A stretch of DNA of 64,000 nucleotides. Source: Chloroflexota bacterium (GTDB lineage: Bacteria; Chloroflexota; Dehalococcoidia; Lucifugimonadales; Lucifugimonadaceae). Location of the stretch: positions 17,511 through 81,510 of the forward strand of contig PBKW01000012.1 in NCBI GenBank assembly GCA_002721615.1. The letters are read 5' to 3'. Made by a program: the position numbers and the translations under genes. Below the pieces are notes generated by a model. That model searched no databases. It saw only the letters and a program-made list of their open reading frames with translations, and was not told the origin of the DNA. This document shows positions 35,386 through 43,011 of this stretch, piece by piece (positions within the stretch are counted from its first letter, which is position 1; each line of letters opens with the position of its first letter).

Positions 35386-36195
35386 TTAAAAAAATTGTCT
35401 CAAAATCATTACTAAAGTCATTACTAATAATGTTACATATAATAGTTTTAATAGAAAAATTTCGGAGAATTTACCTATCGATTTAGCGCCCCAAAAGCTA
35501 GTTAAGGATACAACAACAGCTAAGGGCATAAAAATTTTAAAATCAAAATGACTATTTCCACTTATCCCACTAATCAATCCATGTCCCGATAAACCAAAAA
35601 CAGCAACAAACAAATTAATCATGGAATTAGTTCCTGAAGTTTTTCTAGCAGATATATTTAAATAATTGATTAAAATAGGATATCTTAAAGCTCCCAATAC
35701 TAAACCAGTCGCTCCACCAAATAGTCCAATCAACATTCCCAAAAAATTTGAAATTGTATATTTAAAAATATTCTTATTAAAAAATTTAATCGATTGAGTT
35801 GTTTCTATTTTCTTTTTTTTAAAATGAACACTTTGAAGTATCAAAACAGCAGAAATAAATAAGAAAAAAGTTATCAGCCAAATTAATATTTCCATTGGAG
35901 CATTTTCGCTGATTACCCCCCCTAAAAATGAACCCAATAGACTAAATCCACCAAATAAAAATGCCACTTTATAGTCTATATTTGAGTTTTTTACATGAGG
36001 CCAAATAACACTTATCACAGATATAAAACTTACAGCAAGATTTGTTCCAATTGCAACTAAAGGTGGAATTCCTAAAATTAAAAAAAAGAACAACCTTAGC
36101 GGTCCTAAAGGCATTCCGACCAAACCTCCAATGTATCCTACTATTCCAGTAACAATAATCAGGATAATGATTTGAAAAACATCAATATCCATCAA
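35386..36195 (-). CDS. TauE/SafE-type anion permease
   Basis: 269 residues, about eight hydrophobic helices, in two similar halves: GYIGGLVGMPLGPLRLFFFL near the start and GLFGGATGLVLGALRYPIL in the middle, the paired G-rich motif of TauE/SafE (sulfite exporter) proteins. Members export sulfite or sulfoacetate or carry other small organic acids. It overlaps the DapA-family gene by 4 bases and abuts the ThDP enzyme gene, so it probably carries a substrate or product of that pair. Confidence 0.88.
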   Translation of the reverse strand: MMDIDVFQIIILIIVTGIVGYIGGLVGMPLGPLRLFFFLILGIPPLVAIGTNLAVSFISVISVIWPHVKNSNIDYKVAFLFGGFSLLGSFLGGVISENAPMEILIWLITFFLFISAVLILQSVHFKKKKIETTQSIKFFNKNIFKYTISNFLGMLIGLFGGATGLVLGALRYPILINYLNISARKTSGTNSMINLFVAVFGLSGHGLISGISGNSHFDFKIFMPLAVVVSLTSFWGAKSIGKFSEIFLLKLLYVTLLVMTLVMILRQFF

Positions 36196-37082
36196 ATGAG
36201 ATTTTCAAATAGTCTGTCTATTTGCATAAACTGATCATGATCGGGTTTCAACGAAGGAGACCTTGGAAAACTATTCTTAATAACTCCTTTTTTGACTAAA
36301 ATATACTTATTCAACCAATTTGCTATCCCTAAACTTTGCATAGATAACCTTAATAAATTTGTGTTTTCACTAAATTTCTTTTCAGCACTTATTCGATCTC
36401 CTTCTTCCCACAAATTCCAAATTTCAACAAGAACATCTGACATAGATCCATTTGGCATCGTTCCTACTGAACCAGCTTTTATTTCTTCTAACATAAACAT
36501 TCCACCAGCACCACCAAAAACAATTAATTTTGATTGAGATGATAATTTGTCAATGGTTTCTTTCACTCTAGGGACAGTTGGCTGAGTTTCACATTTCACA
36601 TAACACAAATTCTCATGCTCTTGAGACAAAGAAATAGCCATTTGTGGGGAAATTTGTGCATCCGGTTGATCTTGCATAAATATTGGTACATTCACTTCTT
36701 TAGCAATTTGAATGAAAAAATCATTTACTTCTGAAGGATGTACACCCATTAGAATAGGAGGTCTAATCATTAAAGCATTTGCACCCAAACTTTCAGCTTT
36801 TTTTGAATATTGAATTGATAAAAATGTTCCTTCAGCACCTGTATTCATAACTACAGGCACTCTACCTTTTACATCTCTTACAACTGTACTCAATACCTGA
36901 TCACGTTCCTGTTCGGACAATTTAAAAATCTCACTGGCCATGGCTATTCCAATACCATGAACTCCTACTTCTAAATTCCAATCTACTTGTCTAGTTAAAT
37001 CTCCAAAATTTATCTTACCTTGTTCATCAAAAGGTGTACTAAGAATGGGGAAAACGCCATTAAAAAAAGTTTTTGTTTCCAT
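36192..37082 (-). CDS. DapA-family lyase/aldolase with altered active site
   Basis: 296 residues of the dihydrodipicolinate synthase / N-acetylneuraminate lyase TIM-barrel family. The Schiff-base lysine probably lies in CYVKCETQPTVPR. The usual TTGE phosphate/carboxylate loop is MASE here, and the catalytic tyrosine (in Y-N-x-P) is replaced: the segment reads FMQDQPDAQ. It is therefore unlikely to be lysine-pathway DapA and may cleave or form another 2-oxo acid. It lies in the minus-strand catabolic run between the sodium-pump beta subunit and the TauE-like permease. Confidence 0.85.
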   Translation of the reverse strand: METKTFFNGVFPILSTPFDEQGKINFGDLTRQVDWNLEVGVHGIGIAMASEIFKLSEQERDQVLSTVVRDVKGRVPVVMNTGAEGTFLSIQYSKKAESLGANALMIRPPILMGVHPSEVNDFFIQIAKEVNVPIFMQDQPDAQISPQMAISLSQEHENLCYVKCETQPTVPRVKETIDKLSSQSKLIVFGGAGGMFMLEEIKAGSVGTMPNGSMSDVLVEIWNLWEEGDRISAEKKFSENTNLLRLSMQSLGIANWLNKYILVKKGVIKNSFPRSPSLKPDHDQFMQIDRLFENLI

Positions 37083-37109: not shown

Positions 37110-38309
37110 TTAAGAACCAAGAAATTTTGGAACTACACTTAAAAGGACACCTGCTACAGTAGCAGTACCTATTACTCCAGCAACATTAGGGCCCATAGCA
37201 TGCATTAGTATAAAATTTCCCGGCCTTTCTTTCTCTGCCATTTCTTGAACTACTCTAGCAGCCATGGGAACAGCAGAGACTCCAGCCGCACCTATCATAG
37301 GATTAATTTTGTTTTTAAAAAATAAATTCATAATCTTCGCAAGAATAATTCCTGCTACTGTTGCAGCAGCAAAAGCAATTAAGCCTAGGATAAATATTCC
37401 TATAGTTTGCCATTGTAAAAATACATCTCCTGGCATTGTTCCCCCTACTGCTAAACCTAAAACAATTATAACAATATTCATTAATTCATTTTGAGCTGTA
37501 TTTGAAAGCCTAGGCACTACTCCTGATTCTTTTAACAAATTTCCAAACATCATTATTCCTACTAAAGGAGATGCCTTAGGAACAAGAATACTAATTACTA
37601 AAGTACAAATAATCGGAAAAAGAATTTTTGCTCTTTTAGAAACCTCTTTAGGTGAATACTCCATCTTAATTTGACGTTCAGACTTGGTTGTTAACATTTT
37701 AATTATAGGAGGTTGAATAATTGGCACTAAAGCCATGTAAGAATAAGCAGCAACTGCAGTAGCGCCAACAATATCCTGTACATCTACATTGGGTAAACTA
37801 TTTCCAAGTTCTCTCATTCTAGTAGATATAAAAATTGTGGTAGGCCCGTCAGCTCCTCCTATAATTCCAATCGATGCCGCCTCAGGAAGCCCAAAATCAA
37901 AAATCCCAACTGTCGCCAATAAAAGAGATCCAATCATTGCTACAAATACACCAGCTTGAGCTCCTGCACCAAGTATCAAAGTTTTAGGGTTTGATATAGC
38001 AGGACTAAAATCGGTTAATGCTCCTAAACCCAAGAAAACTAATAAAGGTAATAAATCAGTTTCCAATCCATATTTCTGAAAAAAAAGTAGTATTCCTGGA
38101 GATTCTCCTTGAGAAGCTTCTTTTATAAGTTCTCCTAAAGGTAAATTAGCCAATAAAATTCCAAATGAAATCGGTATTAAAAGTAAAGGTTCTTTCTTTT
38201 TAGCTATACCAACAAATAATAATATAAAAGCAATTAACCACATTATAATCATTTTAGGATTAACCCATAATGCTTCGATTCCTTCTAATAAACTCTCTAA
38301 AAAAAACAA
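37110..38309 (-). CDS. Sodium-pumping decarboxylase beta subunit
   Basis: 399 residues, highly hydrophobic (about nine helices). It carries the signature loops of OadB/MmdB/GcdB: SIGIIGGADGPTTIFISTRM, with the essential Asp, and IGAAGVSAVPMAARVVQEMA with MHAMGPNVAGVIGTA near the end. The subunit decarboxylates carboxybiotin and exports sodium ions. The start is TTG at 38309-38307 behind GAGGAATC. It follows the biotin-carrier gene by 10 bases. No alpha (carboxyltransferase) subunit of the usual type is encoded near it. Confidence 0.93.
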   Translation of the reverse strand: MFFLESLLEGIEALWVNPKMIIMWLIAFILLFVGIAKKKEPLLLIPISFGILLANLPLGELIKEASQGESPGILLFFQKYGLETDLLPLLVFLGLGALTDFSPAISNPKTLILGAGAQAGVFVAMIGSLLLATVGIFDFGLPEAASIGIIGGADGPTTIFISTRMRELGNSLPNVDVQDIVGATAVAAYSYMALVPIIQPPIIKMLTTKSERQIKMEYSPKEVSKRAKILFPIICTLVISILVPKASPLVGIMMFGNLLKESGVVPRLSNTAQNELMNIVIIVLGLAVGGTMPGDVFLQWQTIGIFILGLIAFAAATVAGIILAKIMNLFFKNKINPMIGAAGVSAVPMAARVVQEMAEKERPGNFILMHAMGPNVAGVIGTATVAGVLLSVVPKFLGS

Positions 38310-38319
38310 GATTCCTCTT

Positions 38320-38787
38320 TTAACCCAATTTAATTAAAATCGCACTATGCTCTACAGAATCCCCAGGTTTAACATTTACCTCTAGAACTTCTCCATCTAT
38401 ATCTGCCAAAATATTTTGTTCCATCTTCATAGATTCCATTACACAAACTAAGTCTCCTTGTTTTACTTGATCACCTATTGAAACATTTACATTAATAATT
38501 TTTCCTGGCATCATCGCTTTTATAGTTCCATCTGAATCATCAGATTCAGGATGACTTGTGGGAACAAATGATTTCTCTTGAATATTCTCTTCAACAATAT
38601 TGTCATCATTATTTTTATCTAAAATCTGAAGTTCATTATTCTCATCAGAAATTTCGAATTTCTTATTTTCATGTATATCAGCGTTGATTTCAACACCATT
38701 AACTTTAACTTTAGCTTCTCCAGATTCAATATCTAATATTTCTACTTCAAATGATTTGCCATTAATTACTACATTATATTTTTTCAT
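38320..38787 (-). CDS. mmdC: Biotin carrier subunit of the sodium-pump decarboxylase (MmdC-like)
   Basis: 155 residues. An N-terminal segment of about 55 residues resembles the tail of carboxyltransferase-linked carriers, a charged Asp/Asn/Glu-rich linker runs to about residue 88, and the biotinyl domain (90-155) has Lys121 in MESMKMEQ, the biotin attachment site. It shuttles CO2 from a carboxyltransferase to the membrane beta subunit. Its start codon overlaps the stop of the small mmdE gene (ATGA). Confidence 0.92.
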   Translation of the reverse strand: MKKYNVVINGKSFEVEILDIESGEAKVKVNGVEINADIHENKKFEISDENNELQILDKNNDDNIVEENIQEKSFVPTSHPESDDSDGTIKAMMPGKIINVNVSIGDQVKQGDLVCVMESMKMEQNILADIDGEVLEVNVKPGDSVEHSAILIKLG

Positions 38788-38948
38788 CGCTTAGCCCCCA
38801 TTCTAGAAAAAAATTGGCGAGTTCTTGAATAATACGTCCATGAAGATATTTGATTATTAGTACTAACAATACTCTTAGTTTTGATTGTTCTATCATTCAA
38901 TGCTAATGATATTGCTACCGCTGCTGCGATATGAATTTCTTTTTCCAT
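38784..38948 (-). CDS. mmdE: 54-residue epsilon-like subunit, duplicate of the delta tail
   Basis: A 54-codon gene with ATG at 38948-38946 and TGA at 38786-38784. It begins on the last base of the delta-subunit stop (TGATG) and its stop overlaps the biotin-carrier start, so all three are coupled. Its sequence (KEIHIAAAVAISLAL near the start, SSWTYYSRTRQFFSRMG near the end) aligns without gaps to the C-terminal 53 residues of the delta subunit with 31 identities. Veillonella methylmalonyl-CoA decarboxylase has exactly such an epsilon subunit (about 55 residues, similar to the delta C-terminus), which stabilises the complex. The role here is assigned by that comparison. Confidence 0.85.
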   Translation of the reverse strand: MEKEIHIAAAVAISLALNDRTIKTKSIVSTNNQISSWTYYSRTRQFFSRMGAKR

Positions 38949-39011
38949 CACTTATTATCTCCCATTCTAGAAAGTAATTGGCGAGTTCTTGAATAATACG
39001 TCCATGAAGAT
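38797..39011. repeat. Direct repeat from duplication of the delta-subunit 3' end
   Basis: 38797-38847 and 38961-39011 are the same 51-base stretch with two differences, 164 bases apart, and 34 bases (38814-38847, 38978-39011) are identical. They encode the SSWTYYSRTRQ region of MmdE and MmdD. Near-identity at silent positions means a recent duplication or ongoing gene conversion, while the rest of the two genes has diverged. Confidence 0.9.
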
Positions 39012-39310
39012 GTTTTATTATTAATATTCACAATATTCTTGGTATTATTTTCTCTTTTATCCAATTCTAATGCTAATACTGCTGCTGCTGCCATATGAAT
39101 TTCTTTATAAAAACCATTTTCTTCATTCTCTAAATTCTCTTGATCTTCATTGATTTGATTTTTTAGATTTTTAGATTTTCTTTTTTCTGAAAAATCTTCA
39201 ATTCTAACTAATAGCAACACAAAAAAAGTCAAGATGAACAAAACTAAGAAAACAAACCCTAAACCTATTGCCGAAATATTTAAACCATCTTGTATTAATT
39301 TAAAATCCAT
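38948..39310 (-). CDS. mmdD: Delta/gamma membrane-anchor subunit of the sodium-pump decarboxylase
   Basis: 120 residues of the OadG/MmdD type: one membrane helix (about 12-36, IGLGFVFLVLFILTFFVLLL), a charged linker rich in Glu, Asn and Lys, and a conserved C-terminal segment (KEIHMAAAAVLALEL, then SSWTYYSRTRQLLSRMG). The anchor holds the soluble subunits onto the beta subunit. It is 17 bases behind pxpC, and its tail is copied as the following mmdE gene. Confidence 0.85.
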   Translation of the reverse strand: MDFKLIQDGLNISAIGLGFVFLVLFILTFFVLLLVRIEDFSEKRKSKNLKNQINEDQENLENEENGFYKEIHMAAAAVLALELDKRENNTKNIVNINNKTSSWTYYSRTRQLLSRMGDNK

Positions 39311-39327
39311 AATTTCCTTAATTAATC

Positions 39328-40419
39328 CTAGTGAAAATAATCAATTACTTCTTCTATTTCTATATATTCTCCGTTAACAGTTACTGAAAAATCCTCAAAA
39401 GTTTCCTCAGAATTTTTATATAATTTAACATCATATTTTGAATCAATAATATCAATTGAATATTCTTTTATCACAATTTCTGAAATATCGTTCTCTGAAA
39501 TTCCTCCATTACTGATTCTGTATAGTTTTTCAGCCTCTTCAATAGTTATTTTTTCAAATTTTATTGAATCTTTAGTTCCTATTTGACCTAATTTAGGCAA
39601 ATCTATACTAGCAACAACACCTATTTTCGGATAACCTCCTGTTGTTTGACAGTCTGAAAGAAGAATTAGAGGTTTTCCATTACCAGGTACCTGAATAGAT
39701 CCTTCAGGAGTGAAATCTGAAATTATATCGTGATTACCAGTTTTGGTAGGAATTTCAGTGCCATCTAATGCAATACCAATTCTATCTAGTTTTTCAGTGG
39801 ATTTAAATGTTTCAGAATAAAAAGTATCTACAACATCTGAAGAAAAATGATCTTCTTGTGGACCGGGTATAACTCGTAATGTAATGTTTTTTGAACCTTC
39901 ATTCTTTTCTCCAAGATACATTAACATTTTCTTTTTTTCTGTCACAGGATAAGACGAAATTAAATCATCTTTCTTTAAACTTTTTCCCAAAAAACCTCCT
40001 ATACCTGATGCTAAATGAGTAGAACCAGAACCAAGAACTAATGGAACATCTATTCCACCAGATACACCAACATAACTCCTAAATCCAATATTAGAAGACC
40101 CAAATGAAAGAACATCATTCTTTTTTAAATTCAAAGTTCTCCACATTGGAATTTTATTACCATTAAGAAGAGGATTTAAATTTGCACCTGTTATAGAAAT
40201 TGTTATTGGTCTAAGAACTAAAAATTTTGCTAAACCATATGAAATTTCTAATGCCAAGGAGTTCAAATCATTTTGCAACAAAAAATTAGCTACTTTAAAT
40301 GAATTTAAATCTGAGGGGCCTGATTTAGACACACCTCTTGATGCATAACCAAACCTTCCAAGATCTTGAATAGTAGTTAAGAATCCTCCATCTAATACTT
40401 GAAAACATTTATTTGACAT
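39328..40419 (-). CDS. pxpC: PxpC/KipA-family protein (AHS2 domain)
   Basis: 363 residues of the allophanate hydrolase subunit 2 / KipA family, the C-terminal half of the carboxyltransferase of urea carboxylase and subunit C of prokaryotic 5-oxoprolinase. It contains GGFLTTIQDLGRFGYASRGV and SGPSDLNSFKVANFL near the start and GSIQVPGNGKPLILLSDCQT with GGYPKIG further on. It overlaps pxpB by 11 bases and is followed by the sodium-pump subunits. In this setting either a 5-oxoprolinase role or a carboxyltransferase role is possible. Confidence 0.9.
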   Translation of the reverse strand: MSNKCFQVLDGGFLTTIQDLGRFGYASRGVSKSGPSDLNSFKVANFLLQNDLNSLALEISYGLAKFLVLRPITISITGANLNPLLNGNKIPMWRTLNLKKNDVLSFGSSNIGFRSYVGVSGGIDVPLVLGSGSTHLASGIGGFLGKSLKKDDLISSYPVTEKKKMLMYLGEKNEGSKNITLRVIPGPQEDHFSSDVVDTFYSETFKSTEKLDRIGIALDGTEIPTKTGNHDIISDFTPEGSIQVPGNGKPLILLSDCQTTGGYPKIGVVASIDLPKLGQIGTKDSIKFEKITIEEAEKLYRISNGGISENDISEIVIKEYSIDIIDSKYDVKLYKNSEETFEDFSVTVNGEYIEIEEVIDYFH

Positions 40420-41143
40420 TATTTATCTCAAAACCTAAAAAATTTTCTTCTATGATTTGTTTTTCTAAATTTTTATATTCTTTCAAATCTACACTAAAAA
40501 ATTTTACTTTCATTCCAGGAATTACAGGAAATGGATTTTTCTTTTTTAAATCAAATAATTTCATTGGTGTCTTCCCTATTATCCTCCATCCACCTGGAGA
40601 ATCTATAGAATAAATTCCCGTTTGGCTTCCTGCTAATCCAACTGAACCTGAGAACACTCTAGTTCTAGGTTTTTTCAATCTCGGACAATGGATTCTTTTA
40701 TCTAATTCTCCTAAATATGGAAAACCAGGAGAAAAACCAGTCATATATACTAAATAAAGGGTAGATGAGTGAATTTTAACAATTTCATCAGAAGATAAAT
40801 TGCAATAATTAGCAACATCCTCTAAATCAGGTCCTTCTTCTCCTCCATATTTTACTGGAATATTAATAATAGTTTGATTTTCATTAACTAATTCCTGAAA
40901 TTTTTTTGAAATCAAAACTTCTGAAATATAATTTCTTACTTCTTGGGATTGGATCAAATTTATGTCAAAAACTACTGAAAATGAATTATATGTTGGAACA
41001 ACATCTACCAACCAAGATTGTTTATCTTTATTTATTCTTTCTACTATCTCATGAATATTTAAGTTAATTTCTGGTGAAATTATATTCTCAAAATACACAG
41101 ATATAGATCTGTCTCCAATATTTTTGATTAAAAAAGAGTTCAT
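40409..41143 (-). CDS. pxpB: PxpB/KipI-family protein (AHS1 domain)
   Basis: 244 residues of the allophanate hydrolase subunit 1 / KipI family. Diagnostic segments are YMTGFSPGFPYLGELD and SGSVGLAGSQTGIYSIDSPG with WRIIGKTP following. With PxpC it forms the AHS1/AHS2 pair; with PxpA it hydrolyses 5-oxoproline using ATP. It lies 7 bases behind pxpA and overlaps pxpC. The N-terminal 60 residues are less conserved, as usual. Confidence 0.9.
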   Translation of the reverse strand: MNSFLIKNIGDRSISVYFENIISPEINLNIHEIVERINKDKQSWLVDVVPTYNSFSVVFDINLIQSQEVRNYISEVLISKKFQELVNENQTIINIPVKYGGEEGPDLEDVANYCNLSSDEIVKIHSSTLYLVYMTGFSPGFPYLGELDKRIHCPRLKKPRTRVFSGSVGLAGSQTGIYSIDSPGGWRIIGKTPMKLFDLKKKNPFPVIPGMKVKFFSVDLKEYKNLEKQIIEENFLGFEINNVK

Positions 41144-41150
41144 TAATGTA

Positions 41151-41915
41151 TTATTTCACAAATGTATTCATAGGGCTCAATTGGATTCCTGATCTCTCTA
41201 ACTCTTTCCTTATCACTGAAGCTAACCCAACAGAACTCTTATTATCCCCATGAAGACATAAAGTTTCTGCAGAAATTTTCACAGAATCACCATCAATAGA
41301 ATCCATTGTTCCAGTCTTAGCCAATTTTATTACCCTTTTCACTATCTCTTCTTCTTGGGTAATCACAGAACCTTTAACATTTCTAGAAACTAATTTTCCG
41401 TCTGAAGTAATTGCTCTATCAGCAAAAGCTTCTCTTGCAATTCTAACCCCAGATTCTTTAGCAACCTCTTCCCAAATTGATCCTGAAAGAACAACATGGA
41501 TTATCTCTGAATCAATCTCTTTGATCGCTTGTACCACCGCTCTAGCTTCTTTTTCATCTCTTGACGCTTTATTGTACAATGCACCATGAGGTTTAACATG
41601 TTGAATTTTCTTATCCCTAGTAAATTGTAGCAAAGCTCCAACTTGATATTTAATTAAATTAACAATTTCCCAATCCTCAAAACTCATATCTCTTCTTCCA
41701 AATCCCATCAAATCTGGATAAGAAGGATGAGCTCCAATAGAAACATTTGAATTTTCAGCTAATTTTACTGTTTTATGCATCCAATTAGGATCTCCAGAAT
41801 GAAAACCCGTAGCGATATTTACAGAAGTAACAAAAGGTACAATTTCATTATCAAGACCAGAGGTCATATTACCAAAAGATTCCCCTACATCAGCATTTAA
41901 ATCTATTATTCCCAA
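41151..41915 (-). CDS. pxpA: 5-oxoprolinase subunit PxpA (LamB/YcsF family)
   Basis: 254 residues. The family start IDLNADVGESFGNM, NIATGFHSGDPNWM, IGAHPSYPDLMGFGRR, VKPHGALYNKA and LCLHGDNKSS are all present, including the metal-binding His and Asp residues. PxpA is the hydrolytic subunit of ATP-dependent 5-oxoproline hydrolysis to glutamate. It follows the Gfo/Idh gene by 10 bases and leads into pxpB-pxpC. Confidence 0.93.
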   Translation of the reverse strand: MGIIDLNADVGESFGNMTSGLDNEIVPFVTSVNIATGFHSGDPNWMHKTVKLAENSNVSIGAHPSYPDLMGFGRRDMSFEDWEIVNLIKYQVGALLQFTRDKKIQHVKPHGALYNKASRDEKEARAVVQAIKEIDSEIIHVVLSGSIWEEVAKESGVRIAREAFADRAITSDGKLVSRNVKGSVITQEEEIVKRVIKLAKTGTMDSIDGDSVKISAETLCLHGDNKSSVGLASVIRKELERSGIQLSPMNTFVK

Positions 41916-41925
41916 AATTACCTCT

Positions 41926-43011
41926 TCAATGCAGAGGGAGTGTTACTTCTCTAGTATTTTCCCAACTCATTCTTACTGCATCTGTAAATTCCATATATTT
42001 TACACCATCTTTGAATGAAGTATGAGTAATATCTTCTTTGCCACGAATAGCATTAACAAATTCTTCTTCTACTCTCCATGACCCTACATTATTAGAATTT
42101 ATATTTAATTTTTCCCATTTCATTTTTTGTTGAGGTTTTGTAACTTCAATTTCCATGGCAAAGCTATTATCAGATGAAGCTTCAGAGGACAATTGATTAT
42201 CATAAAAATGTAATGTCCCTTTAGTCCCATAAATCCAAACATCTGCAATAGGAGCACCACCAAGAACATTGCTATGAGTAAAGTGATACTTACCTCCTAC
42301 AGTCATTGATCCAATTATTTCAAGGTGATCAGGAATTGATATTTCTCTAAGATCAGGCCCTTCTTTCATTCTCTTGACAACTACCTGAGCAGAAGTATTT
42401 ACAGAGCTAGCAGGCCCTAACCATCTCATTGCAGCCTCATACCAAATTCCCATATGCATGATATTGTTTCCAGATAAATCTCTATTATTTCTCCAATGAA
42501 TTTCAGAATTAAACTCAGGAAATTCTCCTGAATTTATTCTCATATCTAAAAACAATAAGTCCCCCATTTCATTATTAATCCAGTCAATAATTGTTAAATC
42601 ATAAGGTAATGTATGTGGAGCTGGAACAACTTGAGTAACTAGTTGAGGATTTTGCTTAGAAAATTTTTCCATTTCTTTTGCTTCTTTAGAATTCATTGCC
42701 ATACGAGCTTCAACAAGAACATGCTTTCCTGCCTTCAATGATTCAATTGTTAAAGTTGAATGCATATACGGCCATGTACCAATACAAACTGCATCAATTT
42801 CATCATCATTTAATAATTCTTTCCAATTTGAATAAATTTTGTTAATTCCAAATTTTTCAGCTACCCGTTTTGATGAATCTATTGACCTATTAGATACTGC
42901 ATAAGCTTCTACTCCATCTTGAGATTGAATTTTAGGTATATGGTGTTTTACTGTATTTGCACCAGCACCGATATAACCTATCTTTAGTAACTTTTCCATA
43001 ATATCCCCCAC
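41926..43011 (-). CDS. Gfo/Idh/MocA-family protein with altered EKP motif
   Basis: 361 residues. The Rossmann domain begins KIGYIGAGANTVKHHIP, and the segment GKHVLVEARMAMNSKEA is the place of the family's catalytic EKP motif; here it reads EAR, so the usual lysine is missing. The C-terminal half holds the beta-sheet substrate domain. It may be a dehydrogenase with changed chemistry or a non-catalytic relative. It lies between the E1 beta gene and pxpA in the minus-strand run with gaps of 19 and 10 bases. Confidence 0.85.
   Translation of the reverse strand: MGDIMEKLLKIGYIGAGANTVKHHIPKIQSQDGVEAYAVSNRSIDSSKRVAEKFGINKIYSNWKELLNDDEIDAVCIGTWPYMHSTLTIESLKAGKHVLVEARMAMNSKEAKEMEKFSKQNPQLVTQVVPAPHTLPYDLTIIDWINNEMGDLLFLDMRINSGEFPEFNSEIHWRNNRDLSGNNIMHMGIWYEAAMRWLGPASSVNTSAQVVVKRMKEGPDLREISIPDHLEIIGSMTVGGKYHFTHSNVLGGAPIADVWIYGTKGTLHFYDNQLSSEASSDNSFAMEIEVTKPQQKMKWEKLNINSNNVGSWRVEEEFVNAIRGKEDITHTSFKDGVKYMEFTDAVRMSWENTREVTLPLH

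Follow-up and report, generated by a model that had tools for sequence, protein, structure and literature searches.

We analysed a window of DNA, a stretch of 64,000 nucleotides from a member of the Chloroflexota (assembly GCA_002721615.1, contig PBKW01000012.1, positions 17,511 to 81,510), in which the genes pxpA, pxpB and pxpC run directly into genes for the delta, epsilon, biotin carrier and beta subunits of a Na+-translocating decarboxylase. We propose, with a probability of roughly 60%, that beta works in reverse, driven by a Na+ gradient, as the biotin carboxylase of this cell, and that it feeds the carboxyltransferases AccDA, PccB and, probably, PxpBC. Together with delta, epsilon and the carrier, beta would form a membrane module that produces carboxybiotin without ATP, Na+ inflow through beta (the reverse of a decarboxylase pump) driving CO2 onto the carrier biotin, and this module would substitute for a lost biotin carboxylase (AccC). 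A single carrier would serve AccDA, which makes malonyl-CoA for fatty acids, as well as the PccB/MmdA-type enzyme and, where present, an OadA-type enzyme. Probably it would also serve PxpBC, whose reaction would be the N-carboxylation of 5-oxoproline, or of a similar lactam, prior to ring opening by PxpA.

The operon and the missing biotin carboxylase

The seven genes occupy positions 37110-41915 on the minus strand in the order pxpA-pxpB-pxpC-delta-epsilon-biotin carrier-beta, the spacing between neighbours from pxpA to beta being -11 to +17 bases. They were identified by Pfam and NCBIfam profiles as follows.

41151-41915, minus strand: pxpA, LamB/YcsF family hydrolase subunit (PF03746, 5e-90; NF003814, 328 bits, cut-off 226)
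40409-41143, minus strand: pxpB, AHS1 / carboxyltransferase subdomain C-D (CT_C_D) (PF02682, 1e-67; TIGR00370, 195 bits, cut-off 146)
39328-40419, minus strand: pxpC, AHS2 / carboxyltransferase subdomain A-B (CT_A_B) (PF02626, 2e-76; TIGR00724, above cut-off)
38948-39310, minus strand: delta (OAD_gamma / MmdD-like) membrane anchor subunit (PF04277, 1e-6, barely above cut-off)
38784-38948, minus strand: epsilon-like protein of 54 aa (translation, compared by eye with delta)
38320-38787, minus strand: biotin carboxyl carrier with an ESMKM biotinylation motif (PF00364, Biotin_lipoyl, 1e-14)
37110-38309, minus strand: beta (OAD_beta), membrane carboxybiotin decarboxylase (PF03977, 4.9e-141)

The original prediction, made from this DNA alone, had described such a tight operon, and the profiles place and identify every gene accordingly. 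As judged from the profiles, the domain identities are firm, save for the small membrane subunit at the margin of its Pfam cut-off. PxpA, PxpB and PxpC are all encoded together in the window, and PxpC falls far short of the PxpC equivalog model NF045499 (204 bits, cut-off 500). The epsilon gene overlaps the stop codon of delta and the start codon of the carrier, and its product appears to have arisen by tandem duplication of the last 50 residues of delta (38784-39310).

The genome to which the window belongs is a metagenome-assembled genome (MAG) of 1.46 Mb in 27 contigs, 89.6% complete, and it has no match to the biotin carboxylase models PF02785 or PF00289. The same is true of 64 of the 76 genomes in the family sample, which are marine Chloroflexota, by PF02785, and independently of 63 by PF00289; the single-contig relatives G007, G008 and G040 are also without a match. 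Four Biotin_lipoyl domains are encoded in the window's genome, and only that of the operon's carrier is of the biotin type. The other three were rejected as extra carriers on their lipoyl-type motifs (ETDK, ETDK and ESAK).

Two family genomes that lack beta, G059 and G075, encode AccC. The gene forms part of a tricarboxylic acid (TCA) cycle cluster in G059, PccB-IDH-MDH-AccC (IDH and MDH, isocitrate and malate dehydrogenase; L116:4857-10327). The beta-bearing G007 has PccB-MazG-IDH-MDH (L125) and the window's genome, G000, has PccB-(455 aa)-MDH (L124), neither with AccC within the stretch. When the PccB clusters of G007 (L125), G075 (L121) and G000 (L124) were compared with that of G059, only the last was found to close with AccC. 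The 455 aa protein adjoining PccB (L001:105-1472) has no Pfam or NCBIfam match.

Across the class, a survey of 393 genomes with a completeness of 85% or more found biotin carboxylase only in 176, beta only in 144, both in 56 and neither in 17 (odds ratio 0.038); about 79 genomes with neither gene would be expected under independence. The corresponding numbers for the AccD-bearing genomes (n = 154) are 70, 63, 17 and 4. The 63 AccD-bearing genomes with beta only span 20 families, and five of them are single-contig assemblies. Members with only biotin carboxylase and members with only beta occur side by side in families f1, f13, f50, f59, f62, f84 and f86, so the exchange of AccC and beta seems to have been repeated. 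This pattern of genes suggests that beta replaces AccC in the fatty-acid synthesis of many relatives.

Biotin carboxylase might instead be present and have been missed through MAG gaps or sequence divergence, as the incomplete and fragmented state of the window's genome would allow. We consider this scarcely probable and, in large part, already refuted, given that two models concur, that 13 of the 14 named controls do give a match, that single-contig relatives are negative as well and that the gap follows the presence of beta across the 393 genomes. The exception among the controls is Thermotoga maritima, which encodes an oxaloacetate decarboxylase (OAD) beta and a PF01039 carboxyltransferase with no biotin carboxylase match, and in which the replacement may have taken place independently. 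Lombard and Moreira describe Thermotogales as having no biotin carboxylase yet keeping a carboxyltransferase, and the accessible part of their paper offers no replacement (PMC3199775). Biotin carboxylase domains do occur in the family genus g6 (G025-G032), mostly together with beta; in several of these genomes the domain lies within proteins of 1110-1205 aa that also hold a carboxyltransferase domain and are probably self-contained acyl-CoA carboxylases.

Pump residues, carboxyltransferases and the direction of flux

Beta aligns to a solved structure over its length, and its residues E40, D154, R267, N274, S345 and N375 correspond to the essential E40, D203, R304, N311, S382 and N412 of StOadB. 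All six, which comprise the Na+ site and catalytic residues, are invariant in 11 of 11 aligned relatives. By a rough estimate, two Na+ entering against one H+ leaving per carboxylation would supply ~20-25 kJ/mol in seawater, close to what the formation of carboxybiotin is usually said to cost. The title of a 1984 study by Dimroth and Hilpert reportedly names the carboxylation of pyruvate and acetyl-CoA through reversal of such a pump. The paper on StOadB cites that study when it describes pumps of this kind as reversible (PMC7274780). A reversed OAD has been proposed in place of pyruvate carboxylase in the marine bacterium Nitrospina, according to the portion of that report available, which also cites the 1984 study (PMC3578206).

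The window encodes no carboxyltransferase alpha subunit, as originally predicted, and all alpha matches in the genome lie on other contigs. The idea of a pump that works without an alpha subunit is not supported by the wider search: elsewhere the genome has two OadA/PycB-type alphas (L003:595-2121 and L004:1495-3024) and one MmdA/PccB-type carboxyltransferase (G000:C10:209189-210646), which makes a dedicated pump built on PxpBC unnecessary. It also encodes an AccD-AccA fusion of 586 aa (L002:1243-3003). A PF01039 match of ~590 aa considered as a GcdA-type alpha was rejected, being this fusion. Both OadA/PycB-type proteins are without a biotin domain and hence require a separate carrier; their genes stand alone, far from beta, among neighbours unrelated to biotin chemistry. 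An alpha accompanies the module in relatives to an extent that depends on its type, the OadA type not co-occurring with it (17 of 76 family genomes) and the PccB type being nearly universal in the family.

With two complete alpha-like genes that both need a separate carrier, an ordinary OAD could be assembled from the L003 or L004 alpha and beta, to decarboxylate oxaloacetate or, in the reverse direction, to carboxylate pyruvate. We find this hardly credible, because the alpha genes are solitary and distant from beta, their type is so much rarer than beta (68 of 76), and G007 and G008 have no PF02436 matches. The OadA-type alpha was rejected as the general partner of beta on the same distribution.

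The strongest rival is an ordinary Na+-translocating methylmalonyl-CoA decarboxylase, in which the PccB-like protein would be the MmdA that completes delta, epsilon, carrier and beta, AccDA would be supplied by transcarboxylation from methylmalonyl-CoA, and pxpABC would share regulation only. The best NCBIfam model for the PccB-like protein is indeed mmdA (TIGR01117), over its full length, but the 780 bits obtained fall short of the cut-off of 998.8. The near-universal presence of its gene in the family and the retention of every pump residue in beta fit such an enzyme, and excluding AccC would avert a futile cycle. However, the PccB orthologue lies near AccC in the beta-less G059 and is there probably an ordinary acyl-CoA carboxyltransferase, AccDA would still need an unprecedented supply of carboxybiotin, and the conserved linkage to pxpABC would be left unexplained. 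On balance we regard this explanation as unlikely, though a serious contender.

Several points weigh against a reversed beta that replaces AccC. The direction of flux cannot be read from sequence, an MmdA-like carboxyltransferase would equally complete the ordinary methylmalonyl-CoA decarboxylase pump, and the mutual exclusion with AccC could serve to prevent a futile cycle from ATP to Na+. In the class survey, 56 of the 393 genomes hold both beta and biotin carboxylase, and AccD was recognised in only ~44% of the beta-only genomes; those without it may use a PccB-type carboxyltransferase or may not need malonyl-CoA. Most of the genomes surveyed are incomplete MAGs, and the Fisher p-values take no account of shared ancestry. 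Finally, PxpABC operates in other bacteria with no adjacent gene for a biotin partner, so the link between pxp and biotin genes may be regulatory.

The pxp genes and biotin chemistry

Beta is found in 68 and PxpB in 71 of the 76 family genomes by profile search, and in 62 of the 68 beta-bearing genomes PxpB lies at most ~4 kb from beta (our count from the tables), so the arrangement is not due to chance. The order pxpA-pxpB-pxpC-(delta)-carrier-beta is kept in nine genera, that of the window's genome included, and the operon is conserved through most of the family. In three other families (L211, L218 and L229) the pxp genes adjoin beta and carrier divergently, with beta before carrier in two; these rearranged neighbourhoods point to a functional link and not merely to a frozen operon. 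On a Lactiplantibacillus plasmid (NZ_CP035145) the order is pxpB-pxpC-BCCP-AccC-hydrolyase-pxpA (BCCP, biotin carboxyl carrier protein), with AccC in the slot held here by beta, and Thermomicrobium roseum has BCCP-pxpB-pxpC-pxpA-BioY. Three other pxp operons that were inspected have no biotin genes alongside; the link is recurrent, not universal.

The original prediction had gone further, suggesting that PxpBC may move CO2 from a substrate to the carrier and that beta may use it to build a Na+ gradient, as a dedicated new type of decarboxylase pump. The tightness of the operon speaks for this, as do the AHS domains, which form the carboxyltransferase of urea carboxylase (PxpBC has partial matches to the urea carboxylase model TIGR02712), and the annotation of PxpC homologues as biotin-dependent carboxyltransferase. 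Carrier and beta are adjacent in G008, but ~140 kb away from pxpABC, while G059 and G075 keep the linkage of pxpABC to the carrier without beta; moreover, the AccC-bearing Lactiplantibacillus operon favours carboxylation over decarboxylation, and no decarboxylatable substrate is evident. We therefore consider such a pump highly improbable. What remains plausible is the tie between PxpBC and biotin, given the carrier linkage in the absence of beta, the rearranged families and the Lactiplantibacillus and Thermomicrobium operons. Since beta takes the place of AccC, a maker of carboxybiotin, in phylogeny as well as in synteny, the direction is probably the opposite of that first suggested.

PxpBC is generally assumed to carry out an ATP-dependent phosphorylation of 5-oxoproline, in the account given by the accessible part of PMC13274462. 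PxpB of 13 relatives has no invariant Lys, and the column of the general base K1605 of KlUA could not be placed in the alignment. PDB entry 9yx5, for which no paper was found, holds a mycobacterial AHS1/AHS2 pair together with AccA3 (biotin carboxylase and carrier), and this composition hints that AHS pairs can be biotin-dependent.

The same-strand run continues beyond the operon, upstream with a MocA-type oxidoreductase, E1alpha and E1beta and downstream with dihydrodipicolinate synthase (DHDPS)-like, TauE-like and thiamine pyrophosphate (TPP) enzymes. The immediate neighbours are:

41926-43011, minus strand: Gfo/Idh/MocA oxidoreductase, upstream, close to pxpA in many relatives
36192-37082, minus strand: DHDPS-family aldolase/dehydratase, downstream, frequently conserved

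More tentatively, and with somewhat less than even odds in our estimation, a large part of the class might make malonyl-CoA by an ATP-independent, ion-driven biotin carboxylase whose shared carrier also feeds PxpBC, the Na+ gradient paying for the opening of 5-oxoproline. What the sequences show is gene content, its conservation, the retained residues and the mutual exclusion of beta and biotin carboxylase; the direction of flux, the coupling ion, the use of the carrier by AccDA and the reaction of PxpBC are our inference. Acetyl-CoA carboxylase is defined in part by the ATP-dependent step that biotin carboxylase catalyses, and the latter is a target of antibiotics. If the proposal is correct, many uncultured Chloroflexota would fund their fatty acids by an ion gradient and not by ATP, which would explain the incomplete-looking acetyl-CoA carboxylases annotated in these genomes. 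A reaction that purified pumps have been known to catalyse since 1984 would acquire a physiological function, and a way would open to the question of PxpBC enzymes as biotin-dependent carboxyltransferases. We found no published proposal of a decarboxylase pump that replaces AccC in a search that scarcely covered subscription journals.

Comparison with known systems

PxpBC equals the carboxyltransferase halves of urea carboxylase by domain, but occurs here without a biotin carboxylase or a fused carrier, and its substrate is probably a lactam. The Lactiplantibacillus operon with BCCP and AccC (NZ_CP035145) likewise has a biotin carrier gene after pxpB-pxpC, and pxpA close by; here delta, epsilon and beta stand in place of AccC. 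With the heteromeric acetyl-CoA carboxylase (AccABCD) the system shares AccD and AccA, as a fusion, and a biotin carrier, whereas AccC is missing and an MmdC/PycB-like carrier is encoded alongside the membrane subunit beta. The Na+-translocating decarboxylases (OAD, MmdA-E and glutaconyl-CoA decarboxylase, GCD) have the same beta, gamma/delta, epsilon-like and biotin carrier subunits, with the tested Na+-site and catalytic residues kept. They differ in that the operon described here has no carboxyltransferase, several being encoded elsewhere, that no biotin carboxylase was found in the cell, and that we propose the reverse reaction. A further parallel is the reversed OAD proposed for Nitrospina gracilis, also a marine bacterium, for which carboxylation driven by a Na+ gradient has been proposed; as far as the available text of that report describes it, this is a single, pyruvate-specific OAD (PMC3578206), whereas the module described here would provide a general supply of carboxybiotin in place of AccC.

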